From a virus, in the IMG/VR virus record IMGVR_UViG_3300031774_000201, positions 1 to 20,670 of that record: a DNA stretch of 20,670 nt. One strand, 5' to 3'. A program made the position numbers and the translations under genes. This document shows positions 2,003 through 18,470 of the stretch, one piece after another. A model generated the notes under the pieces. The model saw only the letters and a list, made by a program, of their open reading frames with translations. It had not been told where the DNA came from and searched no databases. How positions within the stretch are numbered: position 1 is the stretch's first letter; each line of letters begins with the position of its first letter.

Positions 2003-4303
2003 TTAATTACCTATACAATCTATTACAGTAAGAAGTTCTTGTTGAGCTTCTTCTGGTACATCACCAAATACAGGTCTAAGTACTGCACCTTGACCAGTTG
2101 AACTAAGAATTTTAAGTACGGGTGGAGTCTCAAATCTAAGGATATTTAGAACCCTAACAGCATTTACACCACCAGTTACAGGATCAACTACCAATTCAAA
2201 AATTGGTTTATCACTAACATTTTGTAATTGAACTTTTTGTGTGTCAGGTACAAGTTTTGTATATGGATCAGGAACTAAAGTTGGATCAACTGGAGCATCC
2301 TGAACATCACCACCACCTGTAGGAGATGGAAGTCCTGTTGGGAATACAAATACACTCTCATCCATTAAATCTCCTGGTGTATATCCAGAACCAGGATTTT
2401 CAACAAACACAGTGGTCAATCCAACATTTTGTGGAGGATCTTCTATAACTGGATAACCTTCACCCACACTATCCATAACAACAGCACCTATTGTACCATC
2501 CTCATTAAGTACAGCATGTCCATGAGCACCATGACCAATACCACACTTATCAGCAAAACTAATAGCAGGAGGAGATTTATAATTTCTACCAGGAACTTTT
2601 AAATTAACTCCCATTATACCAGCAGTTCTGCTAACAGAATCAGCAAGAGTGCTCAATCCTTTTGTATTATCAATAAATTTACCCATAACAACCTGACCTA
2701 TAGCACCTAATCCACCTCCACCAAATATTTGAACAGTTGGATTACCACAATTCTGCTTACCACCTGTGCAGGATCCACCACCACTCAATTCATCAATTAA
2801 ACCAGATACCCTACCAGCAGCACCAAGAGTCTTACTGACTCCAGGTGGAACAAGATTGCCAAATTTACTCTTAAGTTTACCAGTCAATCCACCTGTAAGA
2901 CTATCTGCTAATCCACTAACTAAATTTCCACTAGAAAGACTTTGAGCAGTATCAATAATACCACCTAATCCACTTGCTATACCACCAATACCACTTGATG
3001 CACCCTGCATCTGACCTAACACATAATTAAATGGATCTGCACCCTTCTCTAAAGGACCACCAGCAATCTCAAATTTCTTAACTGGAGGACACTTATCCTT
3101 ATTAGTTTGTCCACAGTCAAGGAAACCAGAAAAATCTTCCAATACAAATGCAGAACTTTTTAAGAAATCTGCAATATTAAGACCAGTATCTAAAAGATTA
3201 TCCAATCCACTCAACGGACCTTTCATACCATCCGCAATTCCATTAACAATCTTATTAAGAAAACTTCCAACAAAATTTGCACCAACACAACCAGCAAGAC
3301 CAAGACCAGAAGCAAGTAAATCCTTCAACATATCAGATACAGTGCCTCTCATTCCTTCCACAATTTTATTAGCAACACATGCTAAACCATTCTCTGCACT
3401 TTTTATATTAGAAACCTCTCCAACCTGAGAAGCAACCCCTGATGCATGAGCAGCAGCATATGACTGAGGGGAATTTCCCATCTGAGCAAATACTTTTCCA
3501 AAAGTCTCATTATATACTTTATCCAATCCAGATTGTAACTGTGGTTCCATCCACTCGTATGTTGCATCCATCATACGACCAACAAAACCATTAGCCATGG
3601 TCTCAACCTGATCTGCAACGGCATCAATTTCTGCCTCTAATGCCATTCCAGTCAAAGAAAGTTCCTCTACCCTCCTAGACATCTCTTCAACAGCTTGAGC
3701 CATCCTAGAGATACTATTAGGAGTACATGTATCAGGAGCAATTACTTTAGTACCAGCACCAGATTGATCTACATGTTGACCAGTTGTAGCACTAGAATTA
3801 GTTTCTTGTGAATCAGAATTTTGCTCACCTGATTGATCAGGAACACCAGTCTTCTCATCTTTAATTGTTTTTGGATTTATCTTAATTTCATCAGTAAATC
3901 CTGAAAATGGTGTAAATGGTTCTTTAAATTCTGCATCATCATCTACATGTCTTGGTCTTGCAAAATGCCCAAGAATAGCAGGTGTTTGTGCATCATCTCC
4001 ATCCAAAAAGAACCCAAATACAACATCTCCCTGTTGCAATTGAGTAGATTTAAAATAATTACCAGCACCACTACCTTCAGTATTGGGTAATAAAGCAATT
4101 GCCCAAGGGAGATCTTCATTAGGGAGATCATCTGTAAATGGATGATATCCCATAATACGAACTTTATATCTATTACCCCATCCTTTACCCTCATCTGTCT
4201 GGTCAGCTTGATCTTTCCTAGGTGCAACTTGACCGATCCACCAACGGAATCCATCTCTACCTAAAAAATGCGATTTACCTAAAATAGCTTCTTCTAAACT
4301 CAT
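2003..4303 (-). CDS. 5: gp5-like baseplate hub protein with N-terminal OB-fold, no evident lysozyme domain
   Basis: This 766-residue protein opens with a gp5-type OB-fold at residues ~12-117 (GRDGFRWWIGQVAPR, RYKVRIMGYHPFTDDLPNEDLPWAIALLPNTEG, QGDVVFGFFLDGDDAQTPAILGHF), the part of T4 gp5 that sits on the hub. After a Ser/Thr/Gln-rich linker (~130-185) comes a helical region, then a long Gly/Ser/Leu-rich stretch (~430-560), and a C-terminal part with GSGYTPGD and an ending rich in beta strands. I see no phage-lysozyme catalytic pattern as in T4 gp5, although the protein is longer than T4 gp5 (about 575 residues). The start ATG overlaps the preceding stop as TAATG. The muralytic activity seems to have moved to the M15 peptidase gene upstream. 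gp5-like assignment is firm for the N-terminus only. Confidence 0.8.
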   Translation of the reverse strand: MSLEEAILGKSHFLGRDGFRWWIGQVAPRKDQADQTDEGKGWGNRYKVRIMGYHPFTDDLPNEDLPWAIALLPNTEGSGAGNYFKSTQLQQGDVVFGFFLDGDDAQTPAILGHFARPRHVDDDAEFKEPFTPFSGFTDEIKINPKTIKDEKTGVPDQSGEQNSDSQETNSSATTGQHVDQSGAGTKVIAPDTCTPNSISRMAQAVEEMSRRVEELSLTGMALEAEIDAVADQVETMANGFVGRMMDATYEWMEPQLQSGLDKVYNETFGKVFAQMGNSPQSYAAAHASGVASQVGEVSNIKSAENGLACVANKIVEGMRGTVSDMLKDLLASGLGLAGCVGANFVGSFLNKIVNGIADGMKGPLSGLDNLLDTGLNIADFLKSSAFVLEDFSGFLDCGQTNKDKCPPVKKFEIAGGPLEKGADPFNYVLGQMQGASSGIGGIASGLGGIIDTAQSLSSGNLVSGLADSLTGGLTGKLKSKFGNLVPPGVSKTLGAAGRVSGLIDELSGGGSCTGGKQNCGNPTVQIFGGGGLGAIGQVVMGKFIDNTKGLSTLADSVSRTAGIMGVNLKVPGRNYKSPPAISFADKCGIGHGAHGHAVLNEDGTIGAVVMDSVGEGYPVIEDPPQNVGLTTVFVENPGSGYTPGDLMDESVFVFPTGLPSPTGGGDVQDAPVDPTLVPDPYTKLVPDTQKVQLQNVSDKPIFELVVDPVTGGVNAVRVLNILRFETPPVLKILSSTGQGAVLRPVFGDVPEEAQQELLTVIDCIGN

Positions 4304-4572
4304 TAGTCGTCGTATACTCTACATTCGAGTGAATCTGGATGATTATCACAATATACTTCAAGATTTTGATCTTGATGTCTGGTATGCCAATCATTAATCT
4401 TAGCATCACCTAGATTCTCTTCATTCTCTTCATGAGCATGAAAAGCATCATTGTGCATTTCTAAATCTTTTTCACTATATTCAATCATACCATGATTGAC
4501 ATGTTCTTTATGATCCTTAGGATCAATATAAACCTCGTGGTCGAGGTCATGATTAGGGACTTTAGTAGTCAT
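4303..4572 (-). CDS. Small His-rich acidic conserved phage protein
   Basis: An 89-residue protein rich in His, Asp and Glu (for example HDLDHEVYIDPKDHKEHVNH and NDAFHAHEENEEN), ending EVYCDNHPDSLECRVYDD with its only two cysteines. It has an SD-like AGGA 9 nt before its ATG and sits 9 nt after the gp27-like gene; its stop overlaps the gp5-like start by 1 nt. I recognise the Cys-containing C-terminus as a pattern seen in small cyanophage proteins near gp5 but know no function. The His/Asp/Cys content would allow metal binding, which is speculation. Placement between two hub proteins suggests a structural or assembly role. Confidence 0.7.
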   Translation of the reverse strand: MTTKVPNHDLDHEVYIDPKDHKEHVNHGMIEYSEKDLEMHNDAFHAHEENEENLGDAKINDWHTRHQDQNLEVYCDNHPDSLECRVYDD

Positions 4573-4581
4573 AGTTTTTTC

Positions 4582-5889
4582 CTATTTAAGACCTGAAGTA
4601 TCACGAATGACCTTCATGGCAGAGTAAGATCTATTACCAGAGACATAGTGACTTATCTCTTTGATAATATATAGACCACTTTGGGAATCGTCAACTGCAT
4701 CTTCAGTACTGACTTGTGGGAACAAACACTTAACAATATCACCAGCACATAATGCAACATTAATCGGAACTGTCATAGTAATAATTTGAGTAAATATGGA
4801 AGTAAATCTAGATATAGTTTGAGATACATCTTCAGTCTGATCCATATTAATAGCTGTTGCTGCAACACCAACTGCTGATGGTTCTAAAGTACCAACAGAA
4901 TAAACTCCCGAAACGATCCTGTGGCTCATTTCTGGGCTGGGAATTTTTTTCGGGTCTACTATCTCAGGAGGTTTGTTTTCCTCTGTACCTAATGTTGCTT
5001 GAGGTTTATCAGAAGCATTAAAAATAGATTCATTAGGCATTGTAAATTTCAAAGTGTTTGGATTAAAATAAATCCTATAAGTTGAATACTCACCTCTTGT
5101 TTGAGCACCAGTTATATTATTATTGTTCTCAACACCATATTCTAATATTTTAGAAAAAGAACTTTCAGGATTTTCTACACCTTCATTCTTTCTATCAAAA
5201 GCATATTCTTGTGCAAATTCTTCAGTTTGAGTAAGAGTTTCTACAGATCTAAACCTCATTCCCTTTCTAGTTTGCCATAAGAAAAATCCAGCACTTTTCT
5301 TATTAGCTCCTTCAGGGATTCCTCTAACACCTAACATAGGTGCTAAAGTAAAAGGTTTTCTCATATTACCTACAAAACTGTAAGTATTAATAGTCTTTTC
5401 AAGTTCCCCGTCTATCTCTTCACACTCAACTATATCTAAAAAATCTTTAATAATCTCATCAATTCGTTTTGCAGTATATTTTTTAATAATTCTCTTATTA
5501 AAATTAATAAGACCTTCTTTAGATATTAAATTAAGGATAAATGTTTCATCCTGCTTTTCTTGAACATAATCTTGTACACTATTAACATATAATGTAATTT
5601 CAAAAACACCTGGTGTTTCTTCTTTGTGTATTTCAAAAGGAGTAGTTAAATGTATCTCAACTTTCTCTCCACCTCTAATAGGAAGACCATTATACACACC
5701 CCTACCATTAATAGTCTGACCTGTATTAACTACTCTCATTGTAGCAGTTAAAGCAGGTGAATATAAATTCTCAAAATATTGAAATGCAGCAACACCCTGT
5801 TTCAAATCAACAGTCTTGCTACCATCCGCAGATGTAATTGTTATTTTTTCAAATCTTGATCCTTGGGTTGGTACTGCTGGAGCCGTCAT
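4582..5889 (-). CDS. 27: gp27-like baseplate hub protein
   Basis: A 435-residue protein, close to T4 gp27 (391 residues). The N-terminal half reads FEKITITSADGSKTVDLKQG..., LTATMRVVNTGQT, GGEKVEIHLTTP and FILNLISKEGLINFNKRIIK followed by TAKRIDEIIKDFLDI, the mixed beta/helix layout of gp27/gpD-type hub rings. The C-terminal part (ITMTVPINVALCAGDIVKCLF, SGLYIIKEISHYVSG) fits the second barrel-like domain with the 'low salt bridge' type ending of hub proteins. Its ATG overlaps the preceding TGA by 4 nt (ATGA). gp27 trimers carry the gp5 spike and cap the tape measure, and here it lies between the tape-measure/hub-lytic genes and gp5, as expected. Overall identity to T4 gp27 must be low; the call rests on pattern and order. 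Confidence 0.65.
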   Translation of the reverse strand: MTAPAVPTQGSRFEKITITSADGSKTVDLKQGVAAFQYFENLYSPALTATMRVVNTGQTINGRGVYNGLPIRGGEKVEIHLTTPFEIHKEETPGVFEITLYVNSVQDYVQEKQDETFILNLISKEGLINFNKRIIKKYTAKRIDEIIKDFLDIVECEEIDGELEKTINTYSFVGNMRKPFTLAPMLGVRGIPEGANKKSAGFFLWQTRKGMRFRSVETLTQTEEFAQEYAFDRKNEGVENPESSFSKILEYGVENNNNITGAQTRGEYSTYRIYFNPNTLKFTMPNESIFNASDKPQATLGTEENKPPEIVDPKKIPSPEMSHRIVSGVYSVGTLEPSAVGVAATAINMDQTEDVSQTISRFTSIFTQIITMTVPINVALCAGDIVKCLFPQVSTEDAVDDSQSGLYIIKEISHYVSGNRSYSAMKVIRDTSGLK

Positions 5890-7754
5890 GTATATGAACG
5901 ATTGATTTGTTTAACTATTGACATAATATTTACCCCTGCAGTGTTTTGAGATACTTCCATAGGAGAAGCAACTATAATAGGAGCAATATTAGCAGCTTTA
6001 GCAATCTTATTTATTGGCATAGGAACAGAGATAATCTCACCCTCACTTGGATCTCTATTAATCATATCAGCAGTTTGTCTACCTAAAGACATTGATTGCA
6101 TCCATTCAGTATTACCTTTCTTCAACCAATGCCTATTATCTGGATTGCCTCCCATGTAATCAAAGTGAACTGGATCAACATCCCCACGCCATCTCCACTT
6201 ATACTTTGAACCATTTCTAATCATCCATTCCCACTCAGGAGTATCAGCAGCAATATCAATAGCCCAACCTTGAACATGAGGTGATTGATCTACTGGTGCT
6301 GGCATAAAGACATTAGGATCATTCGCATTTGCTATCAATCTTCTTTGATCATCAGGAGTCCTATAAGATGAAGTTACCATTGAAGCAAGATCAACACCAT
6401 CTGCGGCTGCTGCTTTTGATACATCTTTAAAACCTGCTGCTGCATCAGGATTAAGAACAATTTTCTTACCATAATAATCTTCCCCTAAACCTGAAACCAA
6501 TTTACCACCAGGAGTATTTCTCATAGATCCATCACCTGCTCCAGGTTTAGGATTTAATCTTTTGAATGTGGCAAATGCATTTTCTGCCTGAACTTGATTG
6601 ATTGTAATCTTTTGATTTTCCGCATCATCCTTAGTGATAAGATCTGAAATTACAGGAACTGATGGAAACATCTTGTTAATAATACCACTAGCTTGTGTTG
6701 GTTTATCCCTAATCATACTAGGAGTAACACCAGCATCTTCTAACAACACTGCCAATATAGCATCCTGATTCTTTGAACTGAAAGGATCATCCATACTTAA
6801 CCCAAGAATTTGTGCTCCTTTCTCTATTTGTTCTTTAGTCAATCCATATCTACCATATTCACCTTTCTCACCCAGTAATCCTTCAGTCTCTATCGCCTCT
6901 TTAAGAGGCATTGTTTGTAAATTTACATTAACATCACTCTGTCCAACACTATCATATCCACCACCTCTGCTATCACCCTGTGCAGTTCCAATCATATCTA
7001 AAATAGGATTCCAATTCACCTTTTCTGTTTGACCACCTGTTGCTGTTGGTTCAATAGGTTCTTGTGAACCCATCATTTGAGCACCAAATCTTCTTATAAC
7101 TTCATCTTGAACTTTTTGTCTAGTAGAATCATCACCTGCATAATCCTTAACAGCCTTAATTACACCCTGTATACTCTCACCAAATATCTCTGCTTGACTA
7201 CCAATAGTACCAGCAAGATCATTCCATTTATCCCTTACCTCACCATCAGAATCTAACCAATCCCCATCCCTCATTGCTTGAACAACTTCTCCAGCAAGTG
7301 CTCCTACATCTTCACCTATCGCTATAAGTCCCGTCAAAAGATCACTAACTGTTTTAAAGACAGCCTTAACCACTGGCATCAATTGTTCAATAAATGTAAC
7401 GATCTTAGGAAAATGAGTAAGAAACCATCCAGTAAAAATAGATGCGAGAACAGTCATTATTCTCTGAAGGAATCCACCTTGAGATTTCTTAACTGCTGAT
7501 TTAGGATCAGTACTATCTGCTTTTCTTCCACCCAACTCAAGGAATTTTTCTTTCGATAACTTTTTATTATCAGCTGCTAGTCTTTTATCAGCAATCTTTT
7601 TATCAATTACCTTCTTCTGAGCATCTGTTGCCATACTCTCAAGGGATTTTTGAAGACCCTTAGTAGTATCTTGAATTGCTAACAATCCAAAAGAAAATAC
7701 ATCAAGAGCCTCACTAATCGGAATTAACTTTTTCTTATTTACTTTATCGCTCAT
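5886..7754 (-). CDS. Baseplate hub protein with C-terminal M15-type (VanY-like) peptidase and a degenerate lysozyme-like region
   Basis: In this 622-residue protein, residues ~1-90 are helical and charged, ~93-160 hydrophobic (FLQRIMTVLASIFTGWFLTH...). Residues ~249-342 (ILDMIGTAQG..., LQTMPLKEAIE, YGRYGLTKEQIEKGAQILGL, PFSSKNQDAILAVLLE) resemble the phage lysozyme-like fold built on an 'EG..YD..GRYQ..QD' pattern, but the expected catalytic Glu appears as Gln259. Residues ~418-548 carry the M15 metallopeptidase motifs: SSYRTPDDQ (462-470), SPHVQGWAID with Zn ligands His493 and Asp500, and DPVHFDY with Asp527 and His530. It should cleave peptide cross-links in host peptidoglycan during infection. 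Its N-terminus resembles that of the neighbouring tape-measure-like protein. The peptidase call is strong; the lysozyme-like region is inference. Confidence 0.85.
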   Translation of the reverse strand: MSDKVNKKKLIPISEALDVFSFGLLAIQDTTKGLQKSLESMATDAQKKVIDKKIADKRLAADNKKLSKEKFLELGGRKADSTDPKSAVKKSQGGFLQRIMTVLASIFTGWFLTHFPKIVTFIEQLMPVVKAVFKTVSDLLTGLIAIGEDVGALAGEVVQAMRDGDWLDSDGEVRDKWNDLAGTIGSQAEIFGESIQGVIKAVKDYAGDDSTRQKVQDEVIRRFGAQMMGSQEPIEPTATGGQTEKVNWNPILDMIGTAQGDSRGGGYDSVGQSDVNVNLQTMPLKEAIETEGLLGEKGEYGRYGLTKEQIEKGAQILGLSMDDPFSSKNQDAILAVLLEDAGVTPSMIRDKPTQASGIINKMFPSVPVISDLITKDDAENQKITINQVQAENAFATFKRLNPKPGAGDGSMRNTPGGKLVSGLGEDYYGKKIVLNPDAAAGFKDVSKAAAADGVDLASMVTSSYRTPDDQRRLIANANDPNVFMPAPVDQSPHVQGWAIDIAADTPEWEWMIRNGSKYKWRWRGDVDPVHFDYMGGNPDNRHWLKKGNTEWMQSMSLGRQTADMINRDPSEGEIISVPMPINKIAKAANIAPIIVASPMEVSQNTAGVNIMSIVKQINRSYT

Positions 7755-9496
7755 TAGTCTACTATTGCCTTAACTATAGATTGATTAGGATCCTTAACAT
7801 TAGAAGTTACTAACTCTGGAATTTGAGAAGAATCTTCTCCACTAGAACCCTGTTGATCAGATTTCACTCCACCATTATCAGGCTCAAATGGAACAATAAC
7901 AATCTTTACATTTTTCTCAGAATTAGCAAAAACAGTACTATTATCACCATTATTTGATGAAACAGTACTAATATTTCCAGTCACAGTACCACTACCTGAA
8001 CTATTTTGACTAAATGGTAGGTCAGGCTTTACAAGGAAACTGTCTTTCTCTAAATCATGCTTATGTCTAAACTTCAATTTCTCATTAAATAATGGACCTT
8101 GCCACCCTGAACTATTCAATATGGGGTCACCACCTGGCCAATTCGTAGTTCGCATTGATTCTAACAACTTATACATTTCACCCCTAACACCATTAATTCT
8201 TGCTTCTTCCCGTTCATCTTCTGGTAGATTCTCTACACTTGCATCTTTCATCACACTTATAATCGTTTTTATTTCAGGAATAGCATGTTCTTCCATTGCT
8301 GCTATTTCATCTCCTCGTCTAGTTAAAACTAACTGTAATCCACTAATCTTCTTTTGAATTTCTATTTTTTGCTCAGGTTTAGCACTCTCTAATTGTGTTT
8401 GAAGACCTTCAATCTGTGCTTGTATTTGACTATACCTACCCCATAATTGATTTAAATCATTTAAATATCTTACATTCTGTTCACTGGGCTCGAATGCCGA
8501 CAGAGCATAAAATATTGCCAACTCTTGAGTAGACAAATTCTCCAATCTATCCTTATGTAATCTTTTGTCTCTCCTATCTACTTCTCCAGCTTCTGTCATA
8601 TTAATCCCCCATTGCATCCACCAAGGTCTTTCATAATTCATTTTTTGGAATGTTAAATTTTGCTCTTCAACTAATTTTTCAGATGCAGTTAATTCTGGTA
8701 ACCCCTTTAGCTTTCTATCTAATTCAGATCTTCTCAATTCTTCATTTATTTCTTTTTTCTTTCCTTGATGCCAGAAGTAAGTTCCAACAGCAGCAATAAT
8801 AGCACCAAATGCTAACCAAGTTATTGGATTACCTAAAGCAGCAATGACCATAGGAATATTAAACATTATACTAGTCACTAAACTAGTCAGAGCACCAGTA
8901 ATAGCAGATATACCAATCTGTTGAGCAAGGAATAATCCTCCAATTACCATCAACCCTTTAGTCACATTCTCTTTAATCTCTTCTAACTTATCTAAATCTC
9001 CTGCTTTCCATGCTTCCATAGCATCGCCAAGTTTATCAATCAACCATCCACCAAATATAGCAGTTAATCCCTCAAACAATCTTTGGAAAATACCTTTTGC
9101 TTTCTTCTCTACACCCATTACTGGTTTGAGAATAGCATCCTCGGTTTGTCCAAGGAACTTACCCATATCTAATTTCTTATCCGCATCATTATCTCTTGCA
9201 TCTGCTAAATTTTGATCAGCAAGGGCATCTGCTTGAATATCATTAAGAACCTCAAAAGCAGTAGTAATTGCTCTTAAGTTAGAATCAATGGTATTCAGTG
9301 ATTTAGCAATACCCTTAAAAAGACCTTCAGATATACCATCTAACTTATCTACTCTCTTCTCTAATTTAATTAATCTTTCTAATGTTTTTCTCTGGAGACC
9401 AAAAGACTTCGACAGCTTACTATGAGTTGCAAACTTATCGACACCCGAATCCTTCTCACCAGGAGGTTTGGGCAAATTGTCTTTCATGTCAGCCAT
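7754..9496 (-). CDS. 29: Tape measure / gp29-like baseplate hub protein
   Basis: A 580-residue protein, near T4 gp29 (590). It has a helical charged N-terminus (LQRKTLERLIKLEKRVDKLD, coiled-coil-like, ~34-53), a hydrophobic stretch at ~181-245 (GLMVIGGLFLAQQIGISAIT...ITWLAFGAIIAAVGTYFW) with two or three potential membrane segments, a second coiled coil at ~350-395, and a Ser/Asn/Gly-rich tail at ~490-580. Tape measure proteins commonly carry such hydrophobic segments and are ejected with the DNA. It directly follows the gp26-like gene and its -1 frame extension, the usual tape-measure position after frameshifted chaperones. ATG at 9496 overlaps the end of the 59-codon gene by 8 nt. The assignment to gp29 is from length, composition and order, not from a diagnostic motif. 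Confidence 0.6.
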   Translation of the reverse strand: MADMKDNLPKPPGEKDSGVDKFATHSKLSKSFGLQRKTLERLIKLEKRVDKLDGISEGLFKGIAKSLNTIDSNLRAITTAFEVLNDIQADALADQNLADARDNDADKKLDMGKFLGQTEDAILKPVMGVEKKAKGIFQRLFEGLTAIFGGWLIDKLGDAMEAWKAGDLDKLEEIKENVTKGLMVIGGLFLAQQIGISAITGALTSLVTSIMFNIPMVIAALGNPITWLAFGAIIAAVGTYFWHQGKKKEINEELRRSELDRKLKGLPELTASEKLVEEQNLTFQKMNYERPWWMQWGINMTEAGEVDRRDKRLHKDRLENLSTQELAIFYALSAFEPSEQNVRYLNDLNQLWGRYSQIQAQIEGLQTQLESAKPEQKIEIQKKISGLQLVLTRRGDEIAAMEEHAIPEIKTIISVMKDASVENLPEDEREEARINGVRGEMYKLLESMRTTNWPGGDPILNSSGWQGPLFNEKLKFRHKHDLEKDSFLVKPDLPFSQNSSGSGTVTGNISTVSSNNGDNSTVFANSEKNVKIVIVPFEPDNGGVKSDQQGSSGEDSSQIPELVTSNVKDPNQSIVKAIVD

Positions 9497-9668
9497 GTTT
9501 TCTTTGCTCTGCTTTTAAATTCTCCTCTTCGATATACTGTTTCAATAAACTAAGATAAATCTCCCGTTCCCACGGAATCATATTTTCAATATCACTTAAG
9601 CTATATTTATGATGCTGCATGAGAGCGAAGTTGATCTTGTAATAGGAAACAAGATCCTCATGCAACAT
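9489..9668 (-). CDS. 59-residue tail assembly protein in the -1 frame after gp26-like gene; probable C-terminal half of a frameshift fusion
   Basis: A short frame, ATG at 9668 to TGA at 9489-9491, encoding 59 residues: MLHEDLVSYYKINFALMQHH, KYSLSDIENMIPWEREIYLS, LLKQYIEEENLKAEQRKHG. The pattern 'HEDL..YY..NFALM..H.YSL.DIE.M.PWEREIY' is coherent and helical, so it is a real coding region. It fills the only 170-nt gap in the operon. Its ATG is 2 nt past the gp26-like stop and in the -1 frame. It could start by itself (coupled re-initiation) or be reached by -1 slippage at U UUU UUC (9683-9677), which reads through QLA into this ATG and yields a 299-residue fusion. By position it matches the T part of lambda G/GT or E' of P2. 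No strong SD lies at the normal distance from the ATG, which favours coupling or frameshift. Confidence 0.85.
   Translation of the reverse strand: MLHEDLVSYYKINFALMQHHKYSLSDIENMIPWEREIYLSLLKQYIEEENLKAEQRKHG
9633..9656 (-). other. 8-bp perfect hairpin downstream of the frameshift site
   Basis: In mRNA sense GATCTTGT (9656-9649), loop TTCCTATT, ACAAGATC (9640-9633): a perfect 8-bp stem inside codons 5-12 of the 59-codon frame. It starts 20 nt after the heptamer, longer than the usual 5-9 nt spacer of stimulatory hairpins, so a role in frameshifting is uncertain. Confidence 0.5.
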
Positions 9669-9670
9669 CG

Positions 9671-10387
9671 CTAGTTGAAAAAAGCTGCTAATCCCTCCAA
9701 AGGTATTACATTTTCAACTTTAGTCTTTGGATTAACTACTTTTACTTCATGGTACAACTTAGGCATAGTTGCAAAGAATTTTTCAATTTCTTTAAACTGT
9801 GCTGATCCTAAACCTTCTAAGAATTCTTTCAATTCCTTCTTAGTACAATCCTTCTGAGTCCAAGTCTCTTCATCATTAAATATACATTCCACACAACTAA
9901 CAATCAAATCAAATGATTGATCAAATGATTTATCAGTTACATTAAAATTCTCTTGTATAAACTGATCCAATGAAGGATATGTCATCCTCAATGATAGAGT
10001 TTCATCCAATTTAATATCCTTACTATGTTCAGGATTCTCTTTAATCTGAATCTCATCTAAATTGACTGTAGTTTCTACAACCGTTTCTTTATCATCAGGA
10101 CAGGTTACCTTAATATCTACAGACTCACCGACTGATTTACCCCTAACATTAAGAAAAAGGTATTCAATATCAAATGTAGATAATTTATCAATCTTAGTTC
10201 CTCTAGTAAGAATACAATTACTTAAGACTTGTTTAACTGCTGTAGCAATCTCTTTAAGATCATTACTTTCCATCGCAATAACAAGAATTTTCTCTTCTTT
10301 TACAAGAAATGGTCTGTATTTAACTTTTCTTTTAGACGAAGGAATCACCAACTCATAAGTCGGTGCATTAATCTTTGGTAGTGGCAT
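9671..10387 (-). CDS. 26: gp26-like baseplate hub/tail assembly protein (T4 gp26/gp51 family)
   Basis: A 238-residue protein beginning MPLPKINAPTYELVIPSSKR, followed by KVKYRPFLVKEEKILVIAME. The 'Y-RPFLVKEEK-L--A' block is the hallmark of the T4 gp26/gp51 baseplate family as I know it (T4 gp26: 208 residues). The central part has paired short strands (SVDIKVTCPDDKETVVETTV) and the C-terminus is helical. In T4 these proteins act during hub assembly. The ATG overlaps the heme oxygenase end by 20 nt and is preceded by AAAGGA about 8 nt upstream, which supports this start. The last codons, GCT TTT TTC AAC TAG, contain an in-phase slippery heptamer, so two products (238 and 299 residues) are predicted. 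Confidence 0.85.
   Translation of the reverse strand: MPLPKINAPTYELVIPSSKRKVKYRPFLVKEEKILVIAMESNDLKEIATAVKQVLSNCILTRGTKIDKLSTFDIEYLFLNVRGKSVGESVDIKVTCPDDKETVVETTVNLDEIQIKENPEHSKDIKLDETLSLRMTYPSLDQFIQENFNVTDKSFDQSFDLIVSCVECIFNDEETWTQKDCTKKELKEFLEGLGSAQFKEIEKFFATMPKLYHEVKVVNPKTKVENVIPLEGLAAFFN
9677..9698 (-). promoter_or_regulatory. Candidate programmed -1 ribosomal frameshift site
   Basis: In mRNA sense the sequence is GGAGGG (9698-9693), a 9-nt spacer, then U UUU UUC (9683-9677) in the zero frame as GC(U) UUU UUC AAC UAG. This is a perfect X XXY YYZ heptamer. An SD-like element about 10 nt upstream stimulates -1 slippage in E. coli dnaX, and the layout here is almost the same. After slippage the ribosome reads CAA CUA GCG AUG and continues through the 59-codon frame. 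An 8-bp hairpin begins 20 nt downstream. Confidence 0.75.
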
Positions 10388-11060
10388 CAGTTTTTCCTTT
10401 AATTATACCACATATGTAAGCCATAGTGGATTTGAATGCATTGCCGTCTAACTCTTCAAACATAAACATATTCAAACGAAATGCATAGTTTGCCTCAGAG
10501 ATGATAGCAGAGACCTGTGATTCAGTCACTGGCAGTGTATTTAGTGTAGCACGATAGTTATTTTTAAACTCCTTCTTATTCTCTATATCAGGAAATTCAT
10601 AGAAGTCTAGACCACCATCATTTAACTTAAGAGCGTTTTGAGCAATATTTCTAAGGATCTGACCCCCAGAGAGATCACCCAGATATCTAGTATAATGATG
10701 ACCCACAAGAAGTTCAGTCTGGTCATGTGCTACTTCACGGATACGATTAACATACTGTTGACATGCTTCAGTAGGATAGATTGTCTTTGCCCAATTATCA
10801 CCATAGAAGTACTCACAGTCTTTTGCTAAATTACCATGCCGATAAAGTTCCTTGATGTTCAATGGTCCTACAATAGGATCATCTTTCAATCTTAGAACTT
10901 CCACTTCCATAGCATGATATATGAAATAGTAATTGGCAACAAGTTGCCTATACTTTTCTTTATTCACTACTCCACGAAGAAATGAGGATACAAATTTTGT
11001 ATTCTCTGCTGCGGAATGAGACTGTTTAGTCCCTTCCTTCAATTGTTGTGCTAATCCCAT
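10368..11060 (-). CDS. ho1: Heme oxygenase, cyanobacterial/cyanophage type
   Basis: A 230-residue protein of normal HO-1 length. It converts heme to biliverdin IXalpha, CO and iron using ferredoxin in cyanobacteria; biliverdin is the precursor of phycobilins. The start MGLAQQLKEGTKQSHSAAEN places the proximal heme ligand at His15, and residues 116-135 include ELLVGHHYTRYLGDLSGGQ, the distal-helix signature. The FYEFPDIE...FKNNYR block also matches cyanobacterial enzymes. It is an auxiliary metabolic gene sitting inside the tail operon: the ATG overlaps the gp54-like stop (TAATG) and its end overlaps the gp26-like gene by 20 nt. A possible sigma70-type promoter lies upstream at 11112-11140, inside the gp54-like gene. 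Confidence 0.95.
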   Translation of the reverse strand: MGLAQQLKEGTKQSHSAAENTKFVSSFLRGVVNKEKYRQLVANYYFIYHAMEVEVLRLKDDPIVGPLNIKELYRHGNLAKDCEYFYGDNWAKTIYPTEACQQYVNRIREVAHDQTELLVGHHYTRYLGDLSGGQILRNIAQNALKLNDGGLDFYEFPDIENKKEFKNNYRATLNTLPVTESQVSAIISEANYAFRLNMFMFEELDGNAFKSTMAYICGIIKGKTDATTKD

Positions 11061-11845
11061 TATGCAGTATTTGCGTTAATTTCTGAAAGTTCAGATTGTG
11101 TTCCTGCACCTATATTAGGGTAAACTTTACTTTCTGTCAAGTTGTTTGCTGTCTCCACTTTACCATCTTGTGCAGCAGTTACTGCAGGGAATAATGTTGG
11201 TGCAATACCATCAGGTTTTCTACGATCCATAGATGTAATCTTACCAAAGTAATATCTATCAAAAGCAAATGTTACCTGACATTCAAGAACACTATTACCA
11301 TCATATTGAACAGGCATAGAAGAGACATTAACTGGCCAAGCATTAAGGAATGTATATTCTACATTTCTAAAATGATCTTTATTAAATTTCTGTATTCTTA
11401 TAGTATCTACTTTATAGTTGTCTGGATATTTCATTCTATGGAAATATGCAAGATCAGACCTATCCCCACCATACCCTGAAGCAATATACTCATGCCATAA
11501 CTCAAAAAATTGTAAAGTTCTATAATCACTATCAACATAGAATGTCATAGTAGTATCAGTAAATACTCTAGAATGAGCAAACTTTTCAACTACACCCATC
11601 CTATTACCTTCAATCTGTGCTGTAGCAAAAGAAGTTGCAGGAAGTTCAGCACTATTACACAATAAACCAAGATCTCTACTAATAAAGAAATTACTTACCA
11701 ATGGTGCATTAGAAGTGATGTATTTTCTCAATCCTTGCATCATCCCAAAACCATTAAAAAATACTTCATAATGATTGGTAGTAGCAACCTTCTGAAATAG
11801 ACTTAATATTTGAGATGTTCTTTTAACTCTTGGGTAACTTGGCAC
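11060..11845 (-). CDS. 54: gp54-like baseplate tail-tube initiator (tail tube fold)
   Basis: A 261-residue protein with the tail-tube family layout: LGLLCNSAELPATSFATAQI, then TMTFYVDSDYRTLQFFELWH, then VEYTFLNAWPVNVSSMPVQY and a strand ECQVTFAFDRYYFGKI. The LCNSAELP...F and F.NAWP.NVS.M.. blocks are shared by gp19 tubes and by the gp48/gp54 junction proteins. Because gp48 lies just across the divergent junction and the neighbours are hub genes, gp54 is the best fit (T4: 320 residues); a gp19-like tube is the alternative. The start is GTG at 11845, preceded by TTTAGG 8 nt upstream; the next in-frame ATG lies about 35 codons later and would cut into the fold. It is the first gene of the long baseplate operon. 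Confidence 0.7.
   Translation of the reverse strand: MPSYPRVKRTSQILSLFQKVATTNHYEVFFNGFGMMQGLRKYITSNAPLVSNFFISRDLGLLCNSAELPATSFATAQIEGNRMGVVEKFAHSRVFTDTTMTFYVDSDYRTLQFFELWHEYIASGYGGDRSDLAYFHRMKYPDNYKVDTIRIQKFNKDHFRNVEYTFLNAWPVNVSSMPVQYDGNSVLECQVTFAFDRYYFGKITSMDRRKPDGIAPTLFPAVTAAQDGKVETANNLTESKVYPNIGAGTQSELSEINANTA
11112..11140 (-). promoter_or_regulatory. Possible sigma70-like promoter ahead of ho1
   Basis: Reading leftwards: TTGACA (11140-11135), 17-nt spacer, TAATAT (11117-11112), giving a start near 11105 and a ~45-nt leader before the ho1 ATG at 11060. The -35 is perfect; the -10 matches 4 of 6. It lies in coding sequence, so chance is a real alternative. Confidence 0.35.
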
Positions 11846-13726: not shown

Positions 13727-14373
13727 TGTCATACTATTTCAGAAATGTACCTAATCTTAGGTATAAAAATCCACTAGAATCTAGTAATACTAGAGATAAC
13801 TTTGTTCTTACCAAAAATCTTTTTCTAAGAACTAAACTTAGAAATGATGTTCAAGCAAGTATAACTTTCCTACAATCATATACAATTGATGATGGAGAAA
13901 GACCACAAGATACTGCTGAAACATTATACAATGATCCAACATATGACTGGATAGTATTAACAGTAGCTAATATTATTAATGTTAGAGATGAATGGCCTTT
14001 AGGTGGAAAAAATTTATATAAGTATGCACTATCCAAATATGGTAATGATAATATGAATGCTACAGCATTCTATGAAACTACAGAAGTAAAAGATGTACAA
14101 GGTAGATTAGTTCTTCCTGCAGGATTACAAGTAGATTCTACTTTTACTATTCCTCATCCAGATAATGTTGCAATTACACTTAATCCAGTTATAGGAATAA
14201 GTAATTACCTAGCAGAAACTAGAAAAAATGAAAGAAAAAGACAGATTAAAGTAATGAGACCAGATTATCTAACTACATTCCTAATGGATATGAGAAAGGA
14301 ATTATCATACACCAAATCATCTCAATATGAATCTCGTGGTGTAAAGAAAGCACATAATCCTAGCGTAACTTAG
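13726..14373 (+). CDS. 53: gp53-like baseplate wedge protein
   Basis: A 215-residue protein, close to T4 gp53 (196). It begins MSYYFRNVPNLRYKNPLESS and carries the family blocks VQASITFLQSYTIDDGERPQ, DTAETLYNDPTYDWIVLTVA and NIINVRDEWPLGGKNLYKYA, which resemble a LysM-like fold ('Y.I.dGe.Pe..A..lY.dP.y.Wvil..NNI.d...WPl'). gp53 joins wedges to the hub in the baseplate. The C-terminus (TRKNERKRQIKVMRPDYLTT) is basic and helical. It ends the plus-strand operon and its last 14 nt overlap the end of the opposing 2OG oxygenase gene. Confidence 0.92.
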   Translation: MSYYFRNVPNLRYKNPLESSNTRDNFVLTKNLFLRTKLRNDVQASITFLQSYTIDDGERPQDTAETLYNDPTYDWIVLTVANIINVRDEWPLGGKNLYKYALSKYGNDNMNATAFYETTEVKDVQGRLVLPAGLQVDSTFTIPHPDNVAITLNPVIGISNYLAETRKNERKRQIKVMRPDYLTTFLMDMRKELSYTKSSQYESRGVKKAHNPSVT

Positions 14374-14920
14374 GTCCACTTGCCCATCCAACTAAAACTA
14401 ACCTCTCACCAGAGGTGACAGGTTCTGCTTTATGAGGGCATCTAGAATCAAAAACAATAGATGCTCCTTTTGCTTTAGGTACTTCACATTGCCTATTAAC
14501 ATAATCAACAATAATTAACTCTCCACCTTCATAATCCTTTGGATCAGAAAGTTGAACGCTTAAGCTTAATTTTCTCCAAACTTGCTTATTTGGAGCAATT
14601 CCATAATCACAATGCCAATTAAAATTTCCACCTACCCCATATCTAAGAATTTGAAATTCAAATAACTCTATATCAAATTCATATTTTTTATTAATAGTTT
14701 CAAATATACTTCCACCTATTGATCCTATAACACTATCAGCACAAGGACAGTGAATATCACATAATCTAAAATTTTTCTGATCTTTATAATCAGTCTGGTG
14801 AGTTTGCCACTGATCATCAGTCAAATTGGAAAGATAATCCTCTATCTCAGTAAGTGCTTCATCACTTAAACCAATAATATAAAAAGGATCCTCTTGAGAA
14901 TAATTAAAATCGTCACTCAT
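14360..14920 (-). CDS. 2-oxoglutarate/Fe(II)-dependent oxygenase
   Basis: A 186-residue protein of the prolyl 4-hydroxylase-like 2OG-Fe(II) superfamily. Iron ligands are His103 and Asp105 (NWHCDYG) and His163 (CPHKAEPVTSGERLVLVGWA), with Arg173 as the likely 2-oxoglutarate anchor. The strand FQILRYGVGGNFNWHCD and the GGELIIVD turn are typical. The substrate is unknown; members hydroxylate protein side chains or nucleobases. The start ATG overlaps the preceding stop by 1 nt (14920), so it belongs to the 54-residue / 134-residue operon. It faces gp53 tail to tail with a possible bidirectional hairpin in its last codons. Confidence 0.9.
   Translation of the reverse strand: MSDDFNYSQEDPFYIIGLSDEALTEIEDYLSNLTDDQWQTHQTDYKDQKNFRLCDIHCPCADSVIGSIGGSIFETINKKYEFDIELFEFQILRYGVGGNFNWHCDYGIAPNKQVWRKLSLSVQLSDPKDYEGGELIIVDYVNRQCEVPKAKGASIVFDSRCPHKAEPVTSGERLVLVGWASGPKLR
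14400..14424. terminator. Inverted repeat between convergent operons, possible bidirectional terminator
   Basis: AACCT-C-TCACC AGA GGTGA-C-AGGTT: two 5-bp stems with one C/C mismatch and a 3-nt loop, 26 nt past the gp53 stop. On the minus strand it is followed by AGTTTTAGTT, a modest U-rich run; on the plus strand the run is poor. Confidence 0.4.
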
Positions 14921-15324
14921 TAAATCAATGCTTCAAGTTGCGATACAGCAGTTGCGTTAGTAATTGTTGAATATGGTACTGCAGGATTTGATTTAAGGGA
15001 TGCAGATGCCCCCTTCATATCTGCTATTGATTGTATGTCCACATTCTCTTTCTTTATGGAAAGATATCTTGTTTCTAAAATTTCTGTGGTAATGGTCTTA
15101 GCATCTGCTAATTCCGCAATAACATTTTTGCTTCCATGATAATACTTCCATGCAGATCTAAATGCCGTATTAGGCAATTCAGAAGCATCGATTACTGAAT
15201 ATTCTGATGCAGAAATGTCCTTTGAGATGATAGCATCGTCTGATAGAGTGCAATCCACTGTGGGAATTACAACTCTACACTTACCATCTGCTCCATTAAA
15301 GACAATAACTTTGTCTCTTGCCAT
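14920..15324 (-). CDS. Conserved phage protein with tail-fibre-associated C-terminal module
   Basis: A 134-residue protein, MARDKVIVFNGADGKCRVVI then ISKDISASEYSVIDASELPN, TAFRSAWKYYHGSKNVIAEL, ADAKTITTEILETRYLSIKK. The block 'lP...FR.AW........v...ADAK.I..E..R' is one I recognise from small phage proteins and from C-termini of tail-fibre related proteins; the biochemical role is unknown. The C-terminus (DMKGASASLKSNPAVPYSTI) is small-residue rich. The ATG overlaps the stop of the 54-residue gene (TAATG), so the two are coupled, and both probably derive from the late promoter at 15514-15520. Confidence 0.75.
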   Translation of the reverse strand: MARDKVIVFNGADGKCRVVIPTVDCTLSDDAIISKDISASEYSVIDASELPNTAFRSAWKYYHGSKNVIAELADAKTITTEILETRYLSIKKENVDIQSIADMKGASASLKSNPAVPYSTITNATAVSQLEALI

Positions 15325-15488
15325 TACTCGTCACCACGAGTAGCAGATAAGTTCTGAGCCCATGAATAAGCAATTAGAACCTTTGCTTTAGCATCTGCTT
15401 CATCCTTTGCATATACATCGGCAGTGAAGTCACCATTACTGGCATCTTCATAAGTGACGACATAATGATCTCCTTTGTACGCAGCCAT
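15324..15488 (-). CDS. Small conserved hypothetical protein (54 residues)
   Basis: ATG at 15488 to TAA at 15324-15326 encodes MAAYKGDHYVVTYEDASNGD, FTADVYAKDEADAKAKVLIA, YSWAQNLSATRGDE. The strand-strand-helix layout with 'DEADAKAKVLIAYSW' looks like a small alpha/beta fold. It fills what would otherwise be a 190-nt gap, its stop overlaps the next ATG (TAATG), and a late-type ATAAATA box lies about 25 nt upstream, so it is probably a real first gene of a late operon. No SD is evident before the ATG. Function unknown. Confidence 0.75.
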   Translation of the reverse strand: MAAYKGDHYVVTYEDASNGDFTADVYAKDEADAKAKVLIAYSWAQNLSATRGDE

Positions 15489-15513
15489 TTTAATAAATTT
15501 AAGATCTATGTTT

Positions 15514-15520
15514 TATTTAT
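15514..15520 (-). promoter_or_regulatory. Late promoter (ATAAATA) ahead of the 54-residue gene
   Basis: CATAAATAAAAC on the minus strand overlaps the stop of the upstream 2OG oxygenase gene and lies 25 nt before the ATG at 15488, a normal distance for a T4-type late promoter. Confidence 0.55.
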
Positions 15521-16071
15521 GCTTGTAAAGCAACTTCGGTTAACCCCATAGATCCAGTATACCATCCTGTAGCAATATACTTATCACTCATAGGAGGATT
15601 GCCTCTATGTAAATGGGTATAAGAACCTGGCCAAATAACCACAGTTCCCTTTTTTGGTTTAATCTTATATTGTTGATATAAAAACTCAGTTTCTCCACCC
15701 TCTTCTACATCATTCAAGTATACCATCCAAGCAATTGCTCTAGAATTACAATTCCAATTGATATTCTCTTCATGGAATGTATGATATCCCTGCTTAGGTT
15801 CCGTTTTTTGGAGTAGAGTAAGTGAACTTATATACCTATGTTCTTGAAGATATGGATATTCGTCAACATATTTTTTAAGACATTCATTAACGAATCCATT
15901 CAATGCTTGTGCTTCTCCTGGTGAGAAAGCATCCATACAAATTTGGGTATCCTTAACATGTTTATAATTTCTAGGAACCACCTGTGGTGACCTATTAATA
16001 AACTGAACTACCCAATCACAAAGATCGGGGTCTACAGCATTTCTGTAAACCCCGATAAATTCATGTATCAT
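15517..16071 (-). CDS. 2-oxoglutarate/Fe(II)-dependent oxygenase immediately after gp32
   Basis: A 184-residue protein with the prolyl-hydroxylase-like core: TLLQKTEPKQGYHTFHEENI, AIAWMVYLNDVEEGGETEFL, IKPKKGTVVIWPGSYTHLHR and DKYIATGWY. Likely iron ligands are His100 with Glu102 (an H-x-E instead of the usual H-x-D) and His153 or His155; Lys164 could bind 2-oxoglutarate. The ATG overlaps the gp32 stop as ATGA, so it is coupled to gp32 expression. Codons 6-16 are encoded by a strong 14-bp hairpin, which may limit read-through from gp32. The substrate is unknown. Confidence 0.9.
   Translation of the reverse strand: MIHEFIGVYRNAVDPDLCDWVVQFINRSPQVVPRNYKHVKDTQICMDAFSPGEAQALNGFVNECLKKYVDEYPYLQEHRYISSLTLLQKTEPKQGYHTFHEENINWNCNSRAIAWMVYLNDVEEGGETEFLYQQYKIKPKKGTVVIWPGSYTHLHRGNPPMSDKYIATGWYTGSMGLTEVALQA
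16024..16056 (-). other. 14-bp stem-loop just after the gp32 stop, inside the next coding sequence
   Basis: In mRNA sense ATCGGGGTTTACAG, loop AAATG, CTGTAGACCCCGAT: 13 Watson-Crick pairs plus one U-G pair. It starts 12 nt past the gp32 stop. The following CTTTGTG is not a good U-tract, so an mRNA-stabilising or attenuating structure fits better than a classic terminator. Confidence 0.6.
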
Positions 16072-16931
16072 TCTTCCGCTAACTGTTGGAAGTATTTTAA
16101 TGCATCATCATCTGCTGAAGGTGCTGCTGCAACTGGTGCAGGTTCACGATCAACATCTTCTTCCTCTTCAACTACCTGACGAGCAGGTGCAGCACTAGTA
16201 AGTTTTAGAACTGACTCAAGACGCTTCTTAAGTTCATCATAAGACTTAAACTTATCAGCAGCGACAAGTTCTGCAAGAGAGTATTCTTTCTTCCAGACTG
16301 CCTCTAGAGCATCATCATCATCTAAAAGTGGTTCAACCTTACCGAACTCTGAACTATCATAGTTCCAGTATCCTGCAACTTTTTTGATTTTGATTTTGAA
16401 GTTTGCACCTGCCCAGAAATCAAATGGGTTGATTGCTTCTTCATCTTCAAACTCAGGTTGCATAGCACCCATGATCTTATCAAAAATCTTCTTACCGAAC
16501 TTATAAAGGAATACTTGTCCTTCATTATCAGGATTAGTAGGATCCTTTACAACATAGATATTTGCAAAGTAAGAAAGCTTACGCTTTTGTTTGCGAGCAA
16601 TTTCCTTATCAGAATCAACTCCACTATTCCAAAGACCAGTGTTAAATTCTGAAACTGGATCTTTCTGATTAAGAGTTGTGAGACTGTTCTCAATATACCA
16701 TCCACCACCACCTTGGAAGGCGTGTGAATACATTTTTACCCAAGGAAGATCTTCTCCATTAGGTGCTGGAAGAAAACGAATAACTGCGTATCCGTTACCT
16801 GCTTTATCTACTTCAGGTTTCCAGAGACGCTCATCTCCTTTATTTGCTGAATTGGTTTTTTCAACCTCTTTAACGAGTTTGGCAGTAAGACTACCAAGGG
16901 AAGATTGCTTTTTAAGTTTTGCAAACGACAT
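16068..16931 (-). CDS. 32: gp32 single-stranded DNA binding protein
   Basis: The start is taken at ATG 16931, giving MSFAKLKKQSSLGSLTAKLV and 287 residues (T4: 301). A longer frame to TTG 17003 overlaps the promoter -35 and must be wrong. The N-terminus carries the basic cooperativity (LAST-like) segment KKQSSLGSLTAKLV. The OB-fold core includes AVIRFLPAPNGEDLPWVKMY, SHAFQGGGGWYIENSLTTLN, KRKLSYFANIYVVKDPTNPD and VFLYKFGKKIFDKIM. The acidic tail (EEEEDVDREP...DDDALKYFQQLAEE) recruits partner proteins in T4. The protein has no cysteine at all: where T4 has the zinc-binding CPVC, this one reads DPVS. It coats ssDNA during replication and recombination. Confidence 0.95.
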   Translation of the reverse strand: MSFAKLKKQSSLGSLTAKLVKEVEKTNSANKGDERLWKPEVDKAGNGYAVIRFLPAPNGEDLPWVKMYSHAFQGGGGWYIENSLTTLNQKDPVSEFNTGLWNSGVDSDKEIARKQKRKLSYFANIYVVKDPTNPDNEGQVFLYKFGKKIFDKIMGAMQPEFEDEEAINPFDFWAGANFKIKIKKVAGYWNYDSSEFGKVEPLLDDDDALEAVWKKEYSLAELVAADKFKSYDELKKRLESVLKLTSAAPARQVVEEEEDVDREPAPVAAAPSADDDALKYFQQLAEE

Positions 16932-16974
16932 AGATTTGGCCTGTGTTAATTGGATTTGGCTTTTGTACGAGTCT

Positions 16975-17003
16975 ATTATAAGCCGCTCATAGTGCTTTGT
17001 CAA
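16975..17003 (-). promoter_or_regulatory. Consensus sigma70 promoter for gp32
   Basis: TTGACA (17003-16998), a 17-nt spacer, TATAAT (16980-16975): a perfect host-type promoter. The start would be near 16968, leaving a ~37-nt leader before the gp32 ATG. The -35 lies in the last codons of the DUF1825-like gene. It implies early transcription by unmodified host polymerase. Confidence 0.9.
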
Positions 17004-17325
17004 TCCCCTTGCGAACCTTATCGAGAGTCTCTCTCATGTTAGCAAAAAGGACATTACAATCAATGTTCTTGGGGAATCCCATTACTATAGCAGATTGCCG
17101 AACATTATCAGCAATTTCTTTAGCACGGGGATCATCAGACAGTTTCATGCGAGTATAAAGGACTTGCTGTTTATCTAACAGATCATCCAACATCTCTAGA
17201 TGCTCAACCTGCTCTTCCAATGGAAGTGTAGGAAAATCAAAGACCTTACCATAGATCTCTTCTTGCATCTCGTTAATTGTTTCCATCTCGTCTTGAACGA
17301 TATCGGAGTCAAAAAAACCTGACAT
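16987..17325 (-). CDS. DUF1825-like protein, family shared with cyanobacteria
   Basis: The start is taken at ATG 17325 (MSGFFDSDIVQDEMETINEM, 112 residues) because GAGAGGGG lies just upstream; an earlier GTG at 17346 would lie in the late promoter box. The opening FFDSDIVQ-E, the middle LEMLDDLLDKQQVLYTRMKL then SDDPRAKE, and the end VLFANMRETLDKVRKGID match the layout of cyanobacterial DUF1825 proteins (about 108 residues) as I remember them. No biochemical role is established to my knowledge. The protein is acidic and helical. It sits between a 2OG oxygenase and gp32, with its own late-type and extended -10 promoter candidates. Confidence 0.75.
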   Translation of the reverse strand: MSGFFDSDIVQDEMETINEMQEEIYGKVFDFPTLPLEEQVEHLEMLDDLLDKQQVLYTRMKLSDDPRAKEIADNVRQSAIVMGFPKNIDCNVLFANMRETLDKVRKGIDKAL

Positions 17326-17346
17326 AAACCCCTCTCTGAACACCAC

Positions 17347-17353
17347 TATTTAT
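17347..17353 (-). promoter_or_regulatory. Late promoter (ATAAATA) ahead of the DUF1825-like gene
   Basis: ACATAAATAGTGG on the minus strand lies 21 nt before the ATG at 17325, in the only gap between two genes. The SD-like GAGAGGGG would be in the leader. Confidence 0.55.
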
Positions 17354-17357
17354 GTGT

Positions 17358-17366
17358 ATTATACCA
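17358..17366 (-). promoter_or_regulatory. Possible extended -10 promoter ahead of the DUF1825-like gene
   Basis: TGGTATAAT fits the extended -10 form (TGN-TATAAT) but no convincing -35 lies 17 nt upstream. With the adjacent ATAAATA it would give the gene both early/middle and late expression. Confidence 0.35.
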
Positions 17367-17874
17367 TAGTTGCAACTAAAATCACCCTACGGTTTTCCGC
17401 AGGACTTTGCATATAGTGCTCTCCTGTAAAGACAATAACATCGTCTTCCTCAGGGGAATATTCCTCACCTTCTACAAAGGTAGACCCACCAGAATCATCC
17501 AAATATATTACTATATTACCATGAGGAAATTGATGATCCAAATGCGGTATAGAAGATTTTATCTCTTTCTCTGGATGAACAGCATTGACAGATATACGAA
17601 CAAAATTATTCATCAATACTTCATTACAATCAAGAATATTCTTTAAAATCTGAACAACACCATGTACTTCCTCAGAATTATGAACTCTAGAATAAAAATC
17701 AGATTCTGGTCTTCCTAAAAATGTATGTGTATAAAAGGGTAAATCAGTATGAGTAGAATTTTTTATATCAGGGGTTGATGCTCCATTATAATGCCATGCA
17801 AATTCAGGACTTAAAACCCACCGTTTAAAATCACAATAATCTTTAGTTTTTGGGTTGTGTAAGAGTTTTATCAT
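17359..17874 (-). CDS. 2-oxoglutarate/Fe(II)-dependent oxygenase-like protein
   Basis: A 171-residue protein. The C-terminal half has the double-stranded beta-helix motifs: IPHLDHQFPHGNIVIYLDDS with His111 and Asp113, GGSTFVEG, then DDVIVFTGEHYMQSPAENRR with His153 and Arg162/163. The N-terminal half (FKRWVLSPEFAWHYNGASTP, LPFYTHTFLGR) resembles phage members that act on unknown substrates. The ATG overlaps the end of the next upstream oxygenase gene by 4 nt (ATGA), so the two are coupled and could work as a pair. It differs clearly in sequence from the other oxygenases in the window. Confidence 0.85.
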   Translation of the reverse strand: MIKLLHNPKTKDYCDFKRWVLSPEFAWHYNGASTPDIKNSTHTDLPFYTHTFLGRPESDFYSRVHNSEEVHGVVQILKNILDCNEVLMNNFVRISVNAVHPEKEIKSSIPHLDHQFPHGNIVIYLDDSGGSTFVEGEEYSPEEDDVIVFTGEHYMQSPAENRRVILVATMV

Positions 17875-18470
17875 AATCCAAATTTTATATTAAAACTAAT
17901 ACTAATTCTTTCATTATCAGTTTTATTAGTTTCTGTATTATGCTGAAGTATAGATGGCCATAATGCTATTATACCATTCTCTAAAGGAAGTCCTGCATAA
18001 GATCTTGATATTTGAGAGAATATAAAATTACAAGCATATTGCTTCTGAGGATTTGGGAACATCAAATGACCATCCTTACCATTAGTATTAAGATAATATA
18101 CACCAGATATATCATACCATCCATGATCATGTAGATGTGCATATTTTCCTTTTTTAGTCTTAGTAAACCAAGAATTAGCAATTACATATGACCTTTTCTC
18201 TGTACAACCAATCTCATTTAAATAAGTTATTACATTCTTATCAATAAACTTCAAGAATTTATCTGCACCATTTTCCGATAAAATATCATCATCAAAGAAA
18301 CTACCACTTTTACCCAGACTTAAATCATGAGTATCAGATGTCCAATTTGGATTTTGTGTAAAATCTAAATTATCACAAATATCACCTAATTCTTTTTGAA
18401 TAGTATCAAACTCTTCTCCTTCTGCTTTATTAATATAAACAGGAATTGGGAACCAAGGATGAGTGGTCAT
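17871..18470 (-). CDS. Putative 2OG-Fe(II) oxygenase (PF13759-like)
   Basis: A 199-residue protein starting MTTHPWFPIPVYINKAEGEE; the 'WFPIPVY' opening is usual for this family. The core reads NSWFTKTKKGKYAHLHDHGW, YDISGVYYLNTNGKDGHLMF and the end LWPSILQHNTETNKTDNERI followed by SISFNIKF. The His112/His114/Asp115 cluster and His177 are the likely iron ligands, Arg188 the 2-oxoglutarate anchor. The ATG overlaps the gp33 stop by 4 nt. The family is widespread in T4-like cyanophages; its substrate is unknown. Confidence 0.9.
   Translation of the reverse strand: MTTHPWFPIPVYINKAEGEEFDTIQKELGDICDNLDFTQNPNWTSDTHDLSLGKSGSFFDDDILSENGADKFLKFIDKNVITYLNEIGCTEKRSYVIANSWFTKTKKGKYAHLHDHGWYDISGVYYLNTNGKDGHLMFPNPQKQYACNFIFSQISRSYAGLPLENGIIALWPSILQHNTETNKTDNERISISFNIKFGL

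Follow-up and report, generated by a model that had tools for sequence, protein, structure and literature searches.

Our sequence analysis suggests that gene 26 and the 59 codons that follow it very probably constitute a single tail-assembly-chaperone locus with -1 frameshifting. The locus lies on the minus strand of a T4-like cyanophage contig of 20,670 nt (the whole stretch of DNA that was analysed, hereafter the window), and all the coordinates given below refer to that strand. Gene 26 (9671..10387) encodes a 238-aa protein of the T4 gp26 family (PF12322 T4_baseplate, E 1e-70 in Pfam; phrog_150, E 8e-75 in PHROG), the putative short tail assembly chaperone (TAC-N-like). Its 3' end reads GAG GGA TTA GCA GCT TTT TTC AAC TAG, in which the slippery heptamer U UUU UUC (9677..9683) is in the zero frame and the UAG stop (9671..9673) follows one codon later. 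An SD-like GGAGGG (9693..9698) is located 9 nt 5' of the heptamer. The -1-frame extension (9489..9677), whose first base is shared with the heptamer, reads CAA CTA GCG ATG TTG CAT and stays open for 62 codons (QLAMLHEDL...KHG), of which 59 lie past the end of gene 26, until a TGA at 9489-9491. If slippage takes place on T TTT TTC, the predicted fusion product would have 237 + 62 = 299 residues and the predicted junction peptide GLAAFFQLAMLHEDL. Note that, although 39 in-frame XXXYYYZ heptamers occur in the 25 genes of the window, just the one in gene 26 reads beyond the end of its gene.

A preliminary description of this DNA had already pointed to the GCU UUU UUC AAC UAG gene end with its in-phase heptamer, to the GGAGGG 9 nt upstream, to a -1 frame open through CAA CUA GCG AUG into 59 codons, and to products of 238 and 299 residues; each of these was found again here, the last as coding capacity. 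The 8-bp perfect hairpin that it placed downstream is also present (9656-9649 with 9640-9633), but is merely the inner part of a larger stem-loop (9611..9669) with a 13-bp outer stem (9669-9657 with 9623-9611), which starts 7 nt past the heptamer (dG -24.1 kcal/mol, z = -5.9). The 59-residue product, which it called hidden, is unannotated in the window contig, but belongs to a known family, phrog_634 'baseplate hub assembly catalyst' (gp51; E 2e-27), that is annotated in many cyanophages and omitted from the annotation in others. That the 59-aa stretch also matches phrog_150, at the C-terminal end of this profile, indicates that both parts are fused elsewhere.

The arrangement is conserved well beyond the window. 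In the closest loci (80 viral contigs and the window) T TTT TTC was in phase in 81/81, always with a stop one codon past the heptamer and with gp51 in the -1 phase. A zero-frame U UUU UUY heptamer and a second ORF in the -1 phase were likewise found in 64/64 non-redundant relatives, a set of loci with less than 80% protein identity and with the two parts in separate frames, which omits the T4-type fusions and three heptamer-less Ackermannviridae-like Vibrio phages (K444, 1.244.A and D495). This set includes KVP40 (junction GAT TTT TTC GTA TAA), HTVC008M (AGT TTT TTT TAA), S-PM2 and phages of Desulfovibrio, Stenotrophomonas, Aeromonas, Sinorhizobium and Pseudomonas. The heptamer, with C or T as its last base, is present in S-CRM01, BUCT-ZZ01, SRB7757, Mendera, AS-zj, phiM19, Milchi and S-PM2, and it also occurs in Aeh1, S13, VmeM-32, ACG-2014d, P-RSM4, S-H34 and further environmental clades. 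The use of HTVC008M, KVP40 and BUCT-ZZ01 as queries yielded few or zero additional viral contigs. These results support the proposal that the T4-like gp26 family uses the strategy of lambda and P2, and the alignment across relatives, which had been suggested as a check, revealed that homologues retain the heptamer in phase and the second ORF in the -1 frame, and that those of cyanophage type also retain the GAGG. One of the relatives (L100, 1501 onward) has gene 26 interrupted by a stop at codon 163 that is missing in neighbours 97-100% identical to it; this is probably a sequencing or assembly error.

Codon choice at the heptamer is also constrained. The residue before the Phe-Phe pair varies (Ser, Asp, Ala, Asn or Thr), yet its codon (AGT, GAT, TCT, GCT, AAT or ACT) ends in T in all 64 loci (log10 P -14.4), and the first Phe codon is UUU in every locus (log10 P -11.1). 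In the Ackermannviridae-like Vibrio phages (loci L088, L092 and L093) the two ORFs overlap at TAATG, the second one being in the -1 phase, and CTT TTY replaces the slippery heptamer, which suggests re-initiation or another path to the long form.

The putative SD-like GAGGG upstream is kept by codon choice. A Glu-Gly pair is located 14 nt upstream, and its Glu is encoded by GAG in 37/44 cyanophage-type loci, compared to 31% gene-wide (p 4e-13); loci with GAA instead tend to have GGG for the Gly (p 0.002), so that the purine-rich core is kept. The predicted anti-SD pairing peaks at about -7 kcal/mol at the offset of this site; none is predicted at the spacing required for the gp51 ATG.

Downstream of the heptamer, the RNA is predicted to fold more stably than shuffled sequence (mean z -2.0, with 33/63 loci below -2, compared to a mean z of -0.4 and 9% below -2 in control windows). 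Most cyanophage-type loci have a common stem, AGUAUGGCUC/GAGUCAUACU, 5 nt past the heptamer. In 74 distinct cyanophage-type sequences 87% of the cells of this stem were paired, versus 49% at most when it was slid. In the main class 97.8% were paired, versus 47% at most, with 15 compensatory cells, although this figure is favourable since the 37 main-class loci are a subset picked by sequence class. RNAalifold recovered the stem de novo from these 37 loci and gave almost no consensus when all 40 cyanophage-type representatives were mixed, because the small clade of the window and some others use different stems. Thus, the window, its three nearest relatives and L054 have a longer alternative stem in the same place, the Milchi-type phages have another one, with the compensated changes GCAGGCCGA/TCGGTCTGC and GCAAGCCGA/TCGGCTTGC, and in some lineages the AGUAUGGCUC/GAGUCAUACU stem is missing or different. 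The wobble base of an Ala codon varies in step with the second base of its partner codon (GCU-GAG 35, GCA-GUG 11, GCG-GCG 10), a silent substitution thus being accompanied by an amino acid replacement. This clearest compensation concerns one base pair, and on the gene 26 tree the informative independent pairs agree 4 to 0, for which the sign test is underpowered (p 0.125). Taken together, the SD-like site, the heptamer and the stem-loop with its compensatory changes would constitute a dnaX-like three-part signal, whose stimulators are present at the right spacing (SD-like site upstream, stem-loop 5-9 nt downstream), but not in every lineage.

The ATG just past the stop (9666..9668) could serve for re-initiation and give a stand-alone protein of 59 aa. 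It is conceivable, though in our judgement improbable, that frameshifting generates the fusion while re-initiation generates free gp51, and that the two products are used. The two signals are compatible and each is present in the window, and some stand-alone gp51 may be made in the loci with an ATG. About two thirds of the non-redundant loci have such an ATG near the stop, as do 72/80 cyanophage-type loci, but it is missing in the other 8/80, with 6 changes on the tree, so free gp51 is not generally required.

We consider it very unlikely that coupled re-initiation operates without frameshifting, with ribosomes stopping at the UAG and restarting at the ATG 2 nt on to produce a separate 59-aa gp51, and with the -1 phase as a by-product of close packing. 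In addition to the frequent ATG, the treatment of gp51 as a gene in public annotation and the Ackermannviridae-like relatives with TAATG and no heptamer are in its favour, but it leaves the invariant U UUU UUY, the preceding NNU codon and the stem-loop unaccounted for, and the SD-like site, 9 nt before the heptamer, is too far from the ATG. Moreover, 23/64 non-redundant loci have no ATG within 12 nt past the stop, 11/64 have no ATG, GTG or TTG in the next 16 codons, and in the T4-type phages the domain is encoded solely as a fusion. Marine contigs of one clade have a -1 frame that lacks a start codon: it is open only from the heptamer onward, 7 nt ahead of the stop, and its continuation, FFLVSLSHDNLVNYY, contains no ATG. 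Since about a third of the relatives lack a nearby ATG, an independent start cannot be the general route, and re-initiation as the sole mechanism was rejected on the start-less loci and on the -1 frame that opens at the heptamer. Of the re-initiation alternative offered in the preliminary description, what stands is a possible side route where the ATG exists.

Transcriptional slippage on the U-run, which would give mixed mRNAs and through them the fusion, has even less to recommend it: some relatives carry runs of 7-8 T (HTVC008M: AGTTTTTTTTAA), but the SD-like site and the stem-loop are typical of ribosomal slippage, and we rejected this possibility because the heptamer has the form TTTTTTC, with just six T, in 54/64 loci. 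The chance that the heptamer is an accident of the Phe-Phe motif in AT-rich DNA is negligible and was rejected, since, although F236 and F237 are invariant in the family, the codon usage above has a joint log10 P of about -25 (indicative only, as relatedness is ignored), just 2/54 internal FF pairs form the heptamer, and the FF pair retained in T4 gp26 is encoded as G TTC TTT.

The frameshifting reading also relates gene 26 to the two genes of T4. T4 gp51 (249 aa) matches phrog_150 over almost its full length: PF12322 covers its N-terminal 201 residues, and its C-terminus can be aligned with the 59-aa domain of the cyanophages. T4 gp26 (208 aa) is a short paralogue, divergently encoded and related to gp51 (BLASTP E 2e-6). 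T4 and its enteric relatives have a separate short gene (gp26) and an in-frame long gene (gp51), a layout also present in Moon, TNG87, Aes012, Proteus PM2 and Ac42. Short and long forms with a common N-terminal part are thus found as coding capacity in the window and as separate genes of the same family in the T4-type phages. We think it likely that the frameshift state is the older one, the separate T4 genes having arisen from it by duplication, fusion and divergence, and that in the cyanophage-type (Kyanoviridae) phages 'gp51' is no independent gene and the locus carries the full three-part dnaX-like signal.

Both lambda (gpG/gpGT) and P2 (E/E+E') encode, between the tail tube and tape measure genes, a short product and a -1 frameshifted long product, and P2 E/E+E' also uses a U-run heptamer. 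The window locus resembles them in its predicted pair of products and differs in having the SD-like site and the stem-loop; no sequence similarity to the lambda and P2 proteins was found in the family searches. In E. coli dnaX, an SD-like element about 10 nt upstream, a slippery heptamer and a stem-loop a few nt downstream occur as in the window, but the dnaX heptamer is A AAA AAG and its frameshift product is the shorter one.

As for the gene neighbourhood, a tail tube gene is located upstream of gene 26 in all 80 loci; in the window it occupies 11060..11845 (phrog_45, E 9e-46; PF23849, E 2e-15), and a heme oxygenase gene stands between it and gene 26. The next gene after the extension (7754..9496, 580 aa) is plausibly the tape measure, judging from its position, its length near that of T4 gp29 (590 aa) and its hydrophobic segments; profile searches gave no significant family or tape measure match for it. 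The 622-aa protein encoded after it (5886-7754) also has hydrophobic segments, and towards its C-terminus there is a region like VanY peptidases (PF02557, E 7e-5, under the curated cut-off; phrog_23178, E 3e-36).

Metabolic genes are found in this tail module. The heme oxygenase gene (PF01126, E 3e-76; 10368-11060) overlaps the start of gene 26 by 20 nt and, among the 80 relatives, is found at this site only in the three nearest ones (L002-L004); its placement may tie a metabolic gene to late tail expression. A second one, between the gp5-like and gp27-like hub genes, encodes a CP12-domain protein (PF02672, E 7e-8; 4303-4572) of a Calvin-cycle regulator family. Three 2OG-Fe(II) oxygenase-family proteins (PF13640 twice, PF13759 once) are encoded near each other at 14360-18470.

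Regarding function, the highest-probability PDB matches of the AlphaFold model of gp26 (pLDDT 86) were the tail assembly chaperones 2ob9_A (HK97 gp13; probability 0.63, rmsd 3.8) and 3fgx (0.47), both with E >1. Neither a fold search with the T4-type long form nor a sequence search of solved structures gave an informative match. T4 gp51 is required for assembly and is missing from the particle (PMC3004832). These matches, the role of T4 gp51 and the lambda and P2 precedents support the idea that the two products are a short and a long chaperone.

From the observed anatomy, phase, conservation, codon bias and compensatory pairing we infer that slippage occurs, and we propose the following model, in which its rate and the chaperone roles are also conjectural. 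Most ribosomes would stop at the end of gene 26 and produce the short chaperone of 238 aa. A minority would pause on U UUU UUC with the help of the stem-loop 5-7 nt downstream and of the pairing between 16S rRNA and the SD-like GGAGGG upstream. The two tRNAs would then move back one base, and reading would enter the gp51 domain, generating the 299-aa long chaperone. By analogy, the short form would coat the tape measure, and the C-terminal domain of the long form would join the tape measure to tail tube or hub subunits.

It appears that frameshifting of this gene has previously been reported for T4-like phages. Vladimirov, Gautam & Davidson 2022 (Virology 566:9-15) is the reference given for -1 frameshift signals of poly-T type in the TAC-N genes of T4-like phages (PMC12846349), and the PRFect paper cites it for separate short and fused long chaperone genes that replace frameshifting in some T4-like phages (PMC10885494). 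As represented in these citations, that system very probably involves the same protein family as gp26/gp51 of the window; the central idea would therefore be already known, with the window as a further member, and the preliminary remark that no established case was known among T4-like phages is outdated. The SD-like site with its codon bias and the stem-loop with its co-variation may be new, as we did not meet them in the literature examined, which covers Vladimirov et al. 2022 through the papers that cite it. At the locus level there is also a likeness to the TAC locus of phage Adele and the Vandenendeviridae/Andersonviridae, whose short TAC gene has a conserved -1 frameshift at a terminal poly-T motif (PMC12846349), but the motif there is GTTTTT.

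Finally, the locus accounts for two earlier observations on gp51, its absence in Aeh1 and its reduction to about 20% of the usual length in cyanophages and vibriophages (Sullivan et al. 2010, PMC3037559). Aeh1, S13, VmeM-32, AS-zj and ACG-2014d have the -1 ORF without an annotation, which would explain the 'missing' Aeh1 protein, and the cyanophage gp51 would be short because it is the C-terminal part of a fusion. The frameshifting reading would correct the annotation of several hundred T4-like genomes, in which the long chaperone is missing, split or omitted, and would bring T4 gp26 and gp51, traditionally described as a hub subunit and as a catalyst whose action is unknown, into the general tail-chaperone scheme. 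It would also provide a signal that can be mutated and measured in viruses that are among the most abundant of the ocean.
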